From: Sclerodactyla briareus
Taxonomy: Eukaryota > Echinodermata > Holothuroidea > Dendrochirotida > Sclerodactylidae
NCBI GenBank assembly: GCA_026419785.1
Contig: JAODTK010005574.1
Span: forward strand, 97,251-161,250
Reading direction: 5' to 3'
Length of the DNA stretch: 64,000 nt
The position numbers were made by a program, and so were the translations under genes. Below are positions 12,672 to 48,096 of the stretch, one piece after another (position 1 is the stretch's first letter; each line of letters begins with the position of its first letter). Under the pieces are notes generated by a model, which saw nothing but the letters and a program-made list of their open reading frames with translations, was not told where the DNA came from and searched no databases.

Positions 12672-13127
12672 GGATGCAAACATTTTCCCAAGAAACTAAG
12701 ACCAAGGTGAAAACGCTAAATTCTTTCCAAAGAAGATGTGGGAGTTATGCATAGGGGTCTGTCGGCTGGAGAAACAGGTTCGCAGTGCGGACATTCATCA
12801 ATGACGTAGCTGTAGAAAGCTCGTAAGGTCAACTTCAACTGTTTAAGGGCACCACTGAGGAGACCCCGTTGAGGAAGACACTTGGACCCATACCTCACCA
12901 AAACGACAATATTTTTTTTTCACTCGTGCGGTTGTGCCCCTATCCTCCAGGAAGGCCGGCCTCTACTGTACCGTCTCGGTAGGCTACGGGCCGTAGGATT
13001 ATAGAAAACCACAGAGAACGTGATACTGCGTAGCGATTCCGTCCTCTTCTGCGTAAAGTACTGTCACCGGCTAGAGCCAAGGGACAGAGTCTGCAAATAT
13101 ATGAAGTTCCCCTGTACTTCGTGCAGG

Positions 13128-13309
13128 ACCGTGACCGGACAATTCCCACCCGTCAGCCCGTACAATTCCCATCCGGACAATTCCCACCCGGACAATTCCC
13201 CCTCAACGGAATGTTTTATGTGGTCAATTAGGGTTAGGGACTAAGTTAGGGTCACGTTTGGGTGGGAATTGTCCGGGTGGGAATTGTCGGTGGGAGATGT
13301 CCGGGAAAC
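13128..13309. mobile_element. 182-bp element of facing 15-bp minisatellite units
   Basis: The left half carries four units related to GGACAATTCCCACCC. The right half carries three units in the opposite orientation (GGGTGGGAATTGTCC and variants). The two arms flank a ~55-bp spacer. CGTGCAGG lies directly outside both ends (13120-13127 and 13310-13317), a perfect 8-bp direct repeat. The inverted ends share CCGGACA..CCCACC. The layout is the same as the larger element at 28264-29014, although the unit sequence differs. An 8-9 bp duplication is compatible with Mutator-like or hAT transposition; the superfamily is not proven. Confidence 0.65.
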
Positions 13310-13317
13310 CGTGCAGG

Positions 13318-28004: not shown

Positions 28005-28263
28005 CAGCACAGTGTTATAGCAACATTGAGATGTAAACAATGACATACTGGCTACAATATCTCATCCGGCCCTTCTTGTCCATGGAGCTATTATATGCCT
28101 CAGGTCCAAACCCCGGGCATGCTAAGTGCCATGCAGACGTGAAGTGCAGCCGTTTGCTTTGCCCCTGCCAACGCCCTCATTAAACGTAGTGTTGAGGTGA
28201 CACGTGAAGTGGGCAACATTAATCCCATTTCGAAGAGACATTATTTAGAACATGTTCCGTTTG

Positions 28264-29014
28264 GGGGTAATGTCTATAGACCCCCGTCTCATTGGTCCCC
28301 CGTCTCATTAGACCCCCGTCTCATTGGTCCCCCCGTTCATTATTCGTCTCATTGGTCCCCCGTCTCATTGGTCCCCCGTCTCATTGGTCCCGTCTCATTG
28401 GTCCCCCGTCTCATTGGTCCCCCGTCTCATTGGTCCCCCGTCTCATTGGTCCCCCGTCTCATTGGTCCCCCGTCTCATTAGACCCCCGTCTCATTGGTCC
28501 CTCGTCTCAATAGTCCGAAACAGGTGTTTTGTCAGATAAACTTTAACTTTTATTTTACCCCTTCCCTTGGTCTGATTTGGATGATTCTTACATCGTTAAA
28601 TTCGTCTCGTCGATCTCTATACCACATATTGGGGAACTGGAAAACAACGCGCGGAACCAAAACCCCCAGTTCGGGCAAATCAGTTGATCTATTTCCCGAT
28701 TTGTCTCGGGGACCAATGAGACGAATAATGAACGGGGGGCCAATGAGACGCGGGACCAATGAGACGGAATAATGAACGGGGGGACCAATGAGACGGGGGA
28801 CCAATGAGACGGAATAATGGAAGGGGGGGGACCAATGAGACGGGGGACCAATGAGACGGAATATTGAACGGGGGGACCAATGAGACGGGGGACCAATGAG
28901 ACGGAATAGTGAACGGGGGGCCAATGAGACGGGGGACCAATGAGATGTTTTGTGTCAATTAGGGGACCAATGAGACGGGGGACCAATGAGACGGGGGACT
29001 ATAGGGCGAACCCC
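28264..29014. mobile_element. 751-bp element of facing 16-bp minisatellite arrays, 9-bp TSD
   Basis: The left arm (28288-28505) has about 14 units of GTCTCATTGGTCCCCC. The right arm (28708-28998) has about 14 units in the opposite orientation, GGGGACCAATGAGACG, interrupted at intervals by GAATAATGAACGG-like inserts. A ~200-bp unique spacer lies between them. The outermost ends are also inverted: GGGGTaatgtCTATAG on the left and GGGGTtcgccCTATAG on the other strand at the right, each followed by .CCCCCGTCTCATTGG. TTCCGTTTG lies outside both ends (28255-28263 and 29015-29023), a perfect 9-bp duplication, which points to a Mutator-like or related mechanism. No transposase is encoded. Confidence 0.75.
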
Positions 29015-29029
29015 TTCCGTTTGACAGTT

Positions 29030-32000
29030 CCCCCTCTATAGTTCGAGTTCTCATCAATAGGCTTTCTACGCTCCGTGATGTTGTATTTCAAGTCGTAGCT
29101 AGATTAATAGATTATGTTTCTGTCAAACGAAATCGAATTGTATTTCCGAATGATTTAGGTTGTTCTGGTTGGGGTTTTTCCAATTAGTATCCGGGGAATG
29201 ATACAGGGTATGTGGTTTCAAGTATGCAATGAATTATGGTAACGCCCACTGAAATGTTCCCGAGAAATCTAAGCAAATCTTGCACTGTGACGTTACTGAA
29301 TACTATGTGAATGCAATAAAAAATTATGTGCCAGAGCTGTATCGCTGACGATATTAACAGATATAGAGAGTAAACGAACTGAACATGTTTAAGAATGTGA
29401 CACATAATAATTAATAACATCGCTTATTGTCTCTGACAGCACTCTCAACCAGGCACACGCAGTCTATTGTAATAGAGGGATATAGGCACACGGTAAGCGG
29501 TGTGCCCTCTCCAGTTGTTATGAGAGCTCCATGGTTGGAAACAGATGAGTAAACAACAACAATCACAACGCCACCAGAAACACTGCTCGACGGCCACTGT
29601 ACCGGAAACGGCCACTGTACCGGAAACGTTGCCAATTCTATAACTTATGATGTAAATATAGGTGTATGAATGGACTGTGCCTGAACACGAACCATGAAAA
29701 TGAAGAAACCCAATGATTTTAGTTCAGACTATTTTTGTTATTCCTAATAATATTCAAACCAGGCAGTGGGAAGATCGTCGATCATGATTCGTAATCATAT
29801 TAATGTTATTGTTACGTTACAGTCACCTTACCACCAGGCAACTCCAACGTTCCTAATCATAATAAATAATCTTTAGCCTAAGCTCTTAGAGGTAGAATCG
29901 TCCGGTATTAGCTTTCTATTCACAGTTAGCTGGATAAATGCCTTTCCGTGGACGACCCTTGTGGATATTTGATTATCATAAGTTATGCCACTATTTGTTA
30001 TGCAGACTAAGTTGTAATCGAATGGGAGATTTACCGTCCATGAGTACGAGGTAGCCTACAATTTACGCTAAATAATATAGAATGCATTTGAATAACACTA
30101 GGCCAGCCTGTCTTCTAATTAAATCGAAGTTGTCAGCAAGCACGAGTCAGTACCATGTTCTGTCATTGCCGTACGGTAGGAAATTATAGGTATTTCTACT
30201 GATTTGTCACGATTGAAATTGTAAAGAAAAGAAGAAAAAGAAATTGGGGCATGAGGAGTGAAAAAGTTGCAGTACCTTCCGGACATTTGTGAAGAAAATG
30301 GGGCTGACAGCATTCCTTATTTTGTTCATTATGGATTATGTAGGCCTAGGCAGCCAAAGGTCTGCAAAATACATTGAGCAGGAAAGTGTGAACCAGTGTA
30401 GAATAGGATCAACACTGAAATAAATGGCCCACCAAAAACAGCTGTTAAAAATGTTCCCTTGTAGTGATGTCATCGTGCAAGTTTCCATGATCCATTTTGG
30501 GTATGTTTACATAATTTATACCATGTGTACCAGGACATTAGATTAGTGTTGGGGTTTAGGTGGGATTATGGTTGGTGGTGAGGGGTTACTGAAGTTTAGG
30601 TGTTGTTAATAATACGGCATCAGGTACACATATCATTATAATCCTGACGACCCACTTTTTATTCGAATGTACATTGGCTACCCAGGGTGCGAGAAGTCAC
30701 TTCTGTGTAGAGAAAATACATTTTCAATTTCAGCAATTAGGCAAAGATGGCCAACAGAGTCGTGTTTTGTATAAATAGATGAGAATTTTCAGAAAGAATG
30801 AAATTTGTGCGGTAGGCTCAAGCTGATACGGGTGGTGGACTTTCATCATCTTCAAGTAGGTCAATATTTTTGCCTTTGGAAAATCTAAATGCAGCACTAA
30901 CTAATTTATATATTTGTTGTGTGTGGCCACGGTCTGTGTTTCGAGAATACTTTTAGGCTAATGGAGTCTGTTCAGGTGATGGGGAGTACCCCGGGTGATA
31001 ATTGTGCCATGACTTTCTGATTGCAAGTAGGCCTATCTACATTCCAAATTCTCAATGTTAATGTGTTTTCTTTGTTTTTTGTTTTTAAACAGTCCTGGGG
31101 ATGTTCCATGCCACCACTTTAACCTGATCGTAGTTCTGCGTTACTACTCACACAAAAGGGAGGTTATGTCTGATCCAGGTAATGGCACCAATGAACGTAA
31201 AACACCATTAATCAGTATTACCACTTTTCTTCATCCTACAGCAATGTTCCCTCGAGAAATGTTGGCAGTGAGGTCAAAATTGCTATTTACCTCCATTTTG
31301 GAATCGTGGTGAGGAAAATTGTTAGTGTGCATCCGATTTGCCAGCACAAAACCCTCTTTGTTAACTTCTTGCTCTGGTGAGTCGTGCGGCAAGTTATTAG
31401 GCACGGTGTCAATACGGGCGTAGACGAAACCTGAATACCAGTAAGCCTGGCTGGTAATTTGTTGTGTCCTGTTGGGAAATTGTGCCATCTTCTGAGAAAG
31501 ACGCAGTGTAAAAATGCAAATTTGCATTCTCAAAGGTATATAATTTTGCTACTTCATTGTTCATCTTTTTGGGAGATTTTTATGCCTCCCGGGGAATTCA
31601 CATTTTTCCAGTGAAGAAACAGCTTCCTGGATAGAACAGGTCCATAGAAAGGCTGTGACTAGTGTCATTGTCATCAGTGTTGAAAGGTTAAACTCATGGC
31701 ACAAGCAGTTAACGCAGGGATTTCATTCCTCAAAACTGCCGAAACTGACCTTTCCTCATGTATGTAACCAACTTGGTCACTAACAGGGTAGAGTATGAGT
31801 AGACGCCCAGGAACACCGATAGTGAGGGGGCTTAGGGACTCCCTGGCAGACTCAACCCTGCAGTGGGCAATTACAGTGACCCCTGTCACACTCACCAGAA
31901 GCAGTGGCGATTTTATTTTACTTGGGGAGGGGGGGGTTGGTGAAGGTGAATGGTGCGAGCCGACTGCCGCTGAATGGGTACACGCATGCGGATTCCTTTT

Positions 32001-35519: not shown

Positions 35520-35960
35520 AATGCATCTGCACCTGCAGGTAATGGTTCCAGGGATACGGATATGGGCCGAGTTGGGCAGATGGTAGGCAAGGATTACTGA
35601 CTGTATGCCAGGAAAGATGATGAGAGTAGCACAAATATGACTATGCCACAAAGGGCATTGGGTGTCCGGGTGACTGACTGTATGGCCAATGAGGGCATCT
35701 GACCTGCAGAATAGGAAACCTAGGAGTAATGATAAGGGCCACGTAAGACAAATAGTCTTAGGGTTACTGACGTATGGACTAATCCGGGCATCTGAACCGG
35801 CAGAAAGAGAGGCCCACAAATACGACCATGGCACAAAGGGCAGATGGGTGTCTCAGGGTACTGACTGTATGGCCAATTAGGGCATCTGACCTGCAGATAG
35901 GAGGCCCAGGATTACTGACCAGGGCCTCGTAAGGCAGATAATCTCAGGGTCCCTCCGTGG
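35520..35960 (+). repeat. intronic tandem repeat, GGGCATCTGACCTGCAGA units
   Basis: Units containing TACTGAC.GTATGGCCAAT.AG, GGGCATCTGACCTGCAGA, GGCCCA and CACAAAGGGCA..GGGTGTC recur about four times with large indels. The array fills most of the intron between the exons at 35408 and 35997. Confidence 0.65.
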
Positions 35961-47600: not shown

Positions 47601-47954
47601 TGACTTGAACGGGGCGTTTATTGACAGATGAGTCATCTTCGTTCCCTAGAAAAGTCATGGAAGGGACATAACAAGCTATTTTGTGATGGACATAGTGAGC
47701 TATTATGAGAAAAAAATGCAAAAGGCATCCGTACAATAAAAAAAAAATTCAACAAATATTACATAGGTATGTTCCGAAAATTGGGGTCAGCAATCATCAA
47801 GGATTTTCTTACCCAAATGGTATTTTGAGGAGTCATAATGCTTCTCTGGAGAATATTAAACTTGGATGATCATAACATGTGCTGATTGTCATCGGTGACC
47901 AATAGTACATTAACTGGGGTGGATGGGTGTGAAAGAAAGTTTGGGGTGTCATTT

Positions 47955-48096
47955 CAGTCACAAAAGGTTATTTTATTTCCAGTGAAATAATTACCTTTGT
48001 GTGATTTGAGCTACAGCACCATTGCAGTCACAAAAGGTTATTTTATTTCCAGTGAAATAATTACCTTTGTGTGATTTGAGTACCGCACCATTGGTG
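47955..48096 (+). repeat. 70-bp tandem duplication containing a palindrome
   Basis: CAGTCACAAAAGGTTATTTT opens the unit at 47955 and again at 48025. The two copies are nearly identical over 70 bp. Each contains AAAGGT.ATT..ATTTC facing GAAATAATTACCTTT, a hairpin. The unit ends in TTTGAGCTACAGCACCATTG, which is also found at 40717-40748, where GGTGCTCTAG follows directly. Confidence 0.75.

Follow-up and report, generated by a model that had tools for sequence, protein, structure and literature searches.

Between positions 28264 and 29014 of the window (the whole 64-kb stretch of DNA analysed here) lies a foldback element of 751 bp without a recognisable gene, in which two arrays of a 16-bp unit, GTCTCATTGGTCCCCC, face each other across a spacer (Table 1). 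At up to three mismatches, this unit has 27 matches in the window, 26 of which fall within 28286-28992, 13 on each strand; shuffling gives an expectation of 0.39, and none of 100 shuffles reached 27. A looser test over 13 bases assigns 14 units to the left arm and 13 to the right, which, together with a spacer of 187 bp, bears out the initial annotation's description of about 14 units facing about 14 others across a short gap. A plain 16-bp array makes up most of the left arm, and most of the right arm is a higher-order repeat of 45 bp (16 + 16 + 13; TRF periods 16, 45 and 92). Two minus-strand frames (134 and 136 aa) pass through the right array and the spacer, and neither has a Pfam match over the cut-off.

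An exact 9-bp flanking duplication had also been described, and the copies of TTCCGTTTG that border the element are perfect on both sides. The description of the outer ends as inverted stands in part: GGGGT.....CTATAG.CCCCC is common to both, the bases between differ, and the ends are therefore only partial inverted copies of one another. Single-stranded DNA folding of 28264-29005, a segment that stops nine bases short of the right end, gave -276.6 kcal/mol, against -123.7 +/- 6.2 in 20 shuffles, so that the large hairpin proposed for these arms is supported in silico. Elsewhere in the window, tandem arrays of other kinds occupy 35630-35939 (a 93-bp unit repeated about three times) and 47950-48093 (a 70-bp unit present twice).

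Table 1. The foldback element, its parts and its target in the window
Feature	Positions	Strand	Evidence
Older interspersed repeat, left part (edge approximate)	28144-28263	.	Joined-flank matches
Left target-site duplication, TTCCGTTTG	28255-28263	.	Sequence; flank comparison; single copy in empty paralogues
L terminus, GGGGTAATGTCTATAGACCCCC	28264-28285	+	Sequence; genome-wide end-pattern matches
Left array: 14 GTCTCATTGGTCCCCC units, of which two are the AGA variant	28286-28519	+	Unit counts; TRF
Spacer, 187 bp, common to other copies	28520-28706	.	Genome matches
Right array: 13 units, with 13-bp GTTCATTATTCC sub-units and one CTAATTGACACAAAACA inclusion	28707-28992	-	Unit counts; TRF
R terminus, GGGGTTCGCCCTATAGTCCCCC	28993-29014	-	Sequence; genome-wide end-pattern matches
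Right target-site duplication, TTCCGTTTG	29015-29023	.	Sequence; flank comparison; empty paralogues
Older interspersed repeat, right part (edge approximate)	29024-29165	.	Joined-flank matches

Target sites and dispersed copies

The flanks belong to a repeat of about 260 bp, present in at least 38 other places at 67-84% identity (40 of 55 candidates scored). When the two flanks are joined, 37 of 38 alignments to these places cross the junction, and the element has therefore inserted into an older interspersed repeat. Of these 37 sites, 16 were retrieved, and each of them runs through a single copy of the target without an insert; the exact 9-mer TTCCGTTTG is found in eight and is diverged in the other eight. 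Neither element ends nor partial arrays are present in any of the 16. An empty allele lacking only part of the structure had been named among the observations that would speak against movement as a unit; the sites examined here, which are paralogous and not alleles from other individuals, are free of every piece of the element.

The genome searched comprises 319,486,128 bases in 3171 contigs. Within these 319 Mb the exact 16-bp unit occurs 306 times, against once for the reversed pattern, and at up to three mismatches the L-end pattern has 44 matches (seven for the reversed-pattern control) and the R-end pattern 40 (five for its control); six of the 44 L-end matches fall in one satellite array on C2786. 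The spacer, queried as 28504-28710, has 25 matches counting itself, of which 13 others are at least 100 bp long at 77-94% identity, and because spacer divergence among copies reaches about 23%, they do not demonstrate current activity. The fetched loci merged without conflict into 43 regions. Simple copies join two distinct ends, L (GGGGTAATGTCTATAG) and R (GGGGTCCGCCCTATAG): when the 40 R and 44 L matches are searched for facing ends at most 20 kb apart, 17 rows result, 15 of which are L-R pairs of 173-1669 bp (14 copies, with C2848 entered twice), and the other two, which are longer, stem from two adjacent copies on C1647. Three divergent relatives, on C213, C551 and C1801, have similar facing units and decayed ends. 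The copies on C285 and C2143 share their flanks as well as a long inside, for which reason we take them to be a segmental duplication.

For 22 two-ended copies, target-site duplications (TSDs) were scored by comparing the sequence beside each predicted end, slack of one base being allowed; these are 22 of the 23 typed end pairs, all from fetched regions, the pair of adjacent copies on C1647 having been dropped (its inner pair has a TSD score of 0). A perfect 8- or 9-bp TSD borders nine of the 22, against none of 462 mis-paired flank controls, and a score of at least 4 is reached by 13 of the 22, against one of the 462. Other genomic copies with flanking duplications, as the initial annotation had proposed to look for, are thus present. 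In the remaining nine, which score below 4, no TSD is convincing, and the copies on C2420 and C2719, tested later, have none, which brings the totals to 9/24 perfect and 13/24 at a score of at least 4; age, wrongly called ends or rearrangement would fit the copies that lack one. Five of the nine perfect TSDs are 8 bp long (C1989, C3034 and C3114 at zero slack, C2544 and C2097 at one base of slack), two, those of the window copy and of C3004 (CATACGAAA), are clearly 9 bp, and two can be read as either (C2509 and C2144). The TSD in the window is better taken as 9 bp, since an 8-bp reading needs five Gs at the left end and the family has four.

Insertion as a unit with duplication of the target is thus seen repeatedly across the genome, and the earlier claim that the whole structure moved as one is upheld by the exact-end TSDs of other copies and the clean empty paralogous sites. 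The rival account, in which an inverted minisatellite expanded in place and no transposon was involved, can appeal to the local variation in array length; exact TSDs, empty sites and dispersed copies sharing the same ends all stand against it, the 16 of 16 empty paralogues rule it out, and we give it next to no credence. A Helitron-type origin was also considered and is rejected because of the TSDs. We read 28264-29014, with a probability of about 0.88, as a copy of a non-autonomous, foldback-type family of class II (terminal-inverted-repeat, cut-and-paste) transposons, the DDE transposase of which would be encoded elsewhere or have been lost. The features of the foldback (FB-like) class are present: inverted arms of short units, exact-end TSDs in several copies, a variable number of units and a hairpin in silico. 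The family offers a well-bounded transposon, made largely of minisatellite, that has clean empty sites and exists as a few dozen diverged copies.

Unit arrays of the two arms

The arms were compared over 21 copies (C11 and C1647 were dropped), in which L arms contain 2-79 units and R arms 2-16. Each arm of every copy has at least two units, that of 173 bp included. The arms keep separate unit types, and L and R have not exchanged them: the CTAATTGACACAAAACA inclusion occurs in 11 of 21 R arms and in no L arm, and the AGA variant of the unit, GTCTCATTAGACCCCC, in 15 of 21 L arms and two of 21 R arms. The largest array belongs to the copy at C1989:52244-53912, where the L arm is a run of 79 identical 16-bp units (1264 bp) behind an intact L end, with a perfect TSD and about a dozen units in the R arm; such an arm might be a nascent satellite inside a transposon. 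The satellite array at C2786:208600-210000 has units of roughly 36-44 bp, many of which hold sequence close to the L terminus (AGGGTAATGTCTATAGAACCT), and it either grew from an element end or matches by chance.

Removing two bases from the AGA unit yields the L terminal box, GTCTATAGACCCCC, an alignment that none of 20000 letter shuffles equals; the R terminal box resembles the unit weakly, with 205 of 20000 shuffles as good, both alignments having been picked after inspection. Over 672 units drawn from 40 of the 43 regions (C1989, C1215 and C1338 were dropped because their long arrays would dominate), the best-kept positions are TCATT and CCC, which do not form one clean block. The unit contains GACCAATGAGAC, which fits RRCCAATSRG, the NF-Y/CCAAT-box motif. 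A role of this kind for the unit was set aside on the conservation profile, the Gs of ATTGG being among the weaker positions (0.82 and 0.84, against 0.95-0.96 for the strongest three).

A mechanism can be proposed on these grounds. A DDE transposase whose gene lies elsewhere or has since been lost would recognise the distinct L and R ends, and we infer that it acted in trans; the element would then be inserted with duplication of 8-9 bp of target. The 16-bp units would be putative subterminal transposase-binding motifs in repeated form, perhaps descended from the terminal box through tandem duplication, with array length afterwards drifting in each arm separately via slippage or unequal exchange. 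The likeliest role of the units, by analogy with Galileo, may be to keep numerous transposase molecules close to both ends: the THAP domain of the Galileo transposase binds near the end of the element, and further sites lie in the tandem repeats of its long terminal inverted repeats (TIRs) (PMC3688188).

Alternatively, the arrays may be passive, that is, slippage-prone DNA that grows and shrinks beside the ends and plays no part in movement. The spread from 2 to 79 units per arm speaks for this account, and the C1989 copy, with its 79 identical units on one side and about a dozen opposite, looks like simple local expansion; against it count the presence of at least two units per arm in all 21 copies, even the 173-bp one, and the resemblance between the L terminal box and the units. 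We regard passivity as a real possibility, yet not the probable one. A joint reading, in which the L terminal box was tandemly copied into dozens of subterminal docking sites separately in each arm, one arm has already run away into the 79 identical units of C1989, a second family with 15-bp units did likewise independently, and both are possibly of Merlin type, is, taken with all its parts, unlikely.

The second family is represented in the window by a foldback-like element of 182 bp at 13128-13309, made of facing 15-bp units (GGACAATTCCCACCC) and bordered on both sides by the 8-bp direct repeat CGTGCAGG (13120-13317 overall). A dimer of the GGACAATTCCCACCC-family unit gives 743 genome-wide matches when up to three mismatches are allowed, with none for the control; the figure counts overlapping units in arrays and not copies. 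A long candidate of the same family lies at C1937:43564-52462 (about 8.9 kb), with arrays that face each other and the 8-mer CTTCATTG present at each of its outer ends. In 3.5 kb of its inside, 15 of the 16 frames of at least 70 aa were scanned with no Pfam match over the cut-off, and no hAT match was found there; the candidate is a possible lead for an autonomous foldback element. The 16-bp-unit family itself suits questions of how foldback ends grow, whether repeats serve as docking sites and how arms become satellite DNA.

Superfamily and relation to known foldback systems

An autonomous relative with a transposase between the same arrays had been suggested as the next thing to seek, and none emerged from the end pairs and frames scanned: no transposase-bearing copy is present among the end matches at up to three mismatches, and no facing pair lies 2.2-20 kb apart. 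Six single-ended copies were followed inwards for about 1.5-1.6 kb, where ten of the longer frames (of 45 of at least 60 aa) were scanned and have no Pfam match over the cut-off, as is also the case for three of 26 frames scanned over about 4.2 kb inwards on C2147. In the genome at large, a hAT profile found 38 matches (fragments), which indicates that such searches can detect transposases here; none lies within an element, and the three matches on contigs that bear a copy are separated from it by about 58 kb (C3034), 62 kb (C2786) and 65 kb (C3024). A search for KDZ (Zisupton), for which 8-bp TSDs would be expected, gave one partial match, on C2314, a contig without a copy among the first 100 of 257 places listed or among the R-end and L-end matches. 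The MULE profile PF10551 found nothing in the assembly at E<=0.001 (four candidates scored), a threshold at which diverged Phantom or NOF types could escape. The lone IS1595-type (Merlin-like) DDE remnant of the genome, interrupted by one stop codon, is at C2120:481981-482274; its 4-kb locus contains neither an L or R end nor units, and a relaxed IS1595-type search recovered no further remnants.

Mutator elements duplicate 9 bp of target, with a range of about 8-11 bp, and the initial annotation had seen a fit to them in the 9-bp duplication. As a diagnosis for the family this is unsupported: PF10551 finds nothing in the assembly, and 8 bp is the commoner TSD length, which makes the TSD length of one copy (9 bp) an unfit basis for naming a superfamily. 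A Mutator origin of the Phantom/Tm1 kind would nevertheless accommodate the clear 9-bp TSDs of two copies and an anatomy very similar to that of Tm1, described with a Phantom MULE transposase (PMC3169594), and we consider it unlikely but worth retaining. The other candidate is Merlin, with an IS1016/IS1595-like transposase as the enzyme that moved the element. Merlin TIRs start with GG and TSDs are 8 or 9 bp, one family has very unequal 5′ and 3′ TIRs and two hold internal tandem repeats of 52 or 163 bp (PMC8101967). The GG ends and the 8/9-bp TSDs of the present family fit this pattern, the ends and TSDs together fitting Merlin at least as well as Mutator, and the C2120 remnant places an IS1595-type DDE domain in the genome. 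However, that remnant is without the family's ends or units and stands alone after the relaxed search, no IS1595-type transposase was found here with the family ends, and short-unit foldback arms are not met in the available portion of the Merlin account (PMC8101967). We hold a Merlin origin to be possible, and short of probable. Foldback structure occurs in several superfamilies (PMC3169594), and structure alone therefore cannot decide between them.

The TU elements of sea urchins have tandem units of about 15 bp in their inverted repeats and 8-bp TSDs, a likeness drawn by description. Sea urchin foldbacks are named alongside Tetris in one account (PMC4079207), and Tetris/DAIBAM of Drosophila virilis is itself an apparently non-autonomous foldback whose TIRs contain tandem repeats; it has TSDs of 8-10 bp and no known transposase, and it seeds satellite arrays (PMC4079207). 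It differs in its TIRs of up to 1,735 bp with 'TIR-220' repeats, and is likened by description (PMC4079207). Galileo, a Drosophila element of the P superfamily, has foldback-like TIRs in which tandem-repeat number is unequal between the arms of one copy (PMC3573991), and its repeats contain transposase-binding sites (PMC3688188), a role that would extend to the 16-bp units by analogy; its 7-bp TSD, P-type THAP transposase and F-subfamily units of about 210 bp set it apart (PMC3573991, PMC3688188).

The closest anatomy is that of Tm1, a Mutator/Foldback element of the Phantom-MULE family in root-knot nematodes (Meloidogyne), which has composite foldback TIRs with a variable number of units of about 14 bp, two distinct 7-bp motifs at its ends, as a rule one at each, copies that are mostly MITE-like and non-autonomous, TSDs mostly of 9 bp and a Phantom MULE transposase (PMC3169594). 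In contrast, the units here are 16 and 45 bp, compared with those of Tm1 by description and not by sequence; 8 bp is the commoner TSD length here, against 9 bp in Tm1, and no MULE copy was found. In the partial open-access literature, searched by topic and not by sequence, no publication is tied to the 16-bp-unit family. Assuming that it is undescribed, we class the family as new but the kind of transposon as known, Tm1 and Tetris coming closest to it.
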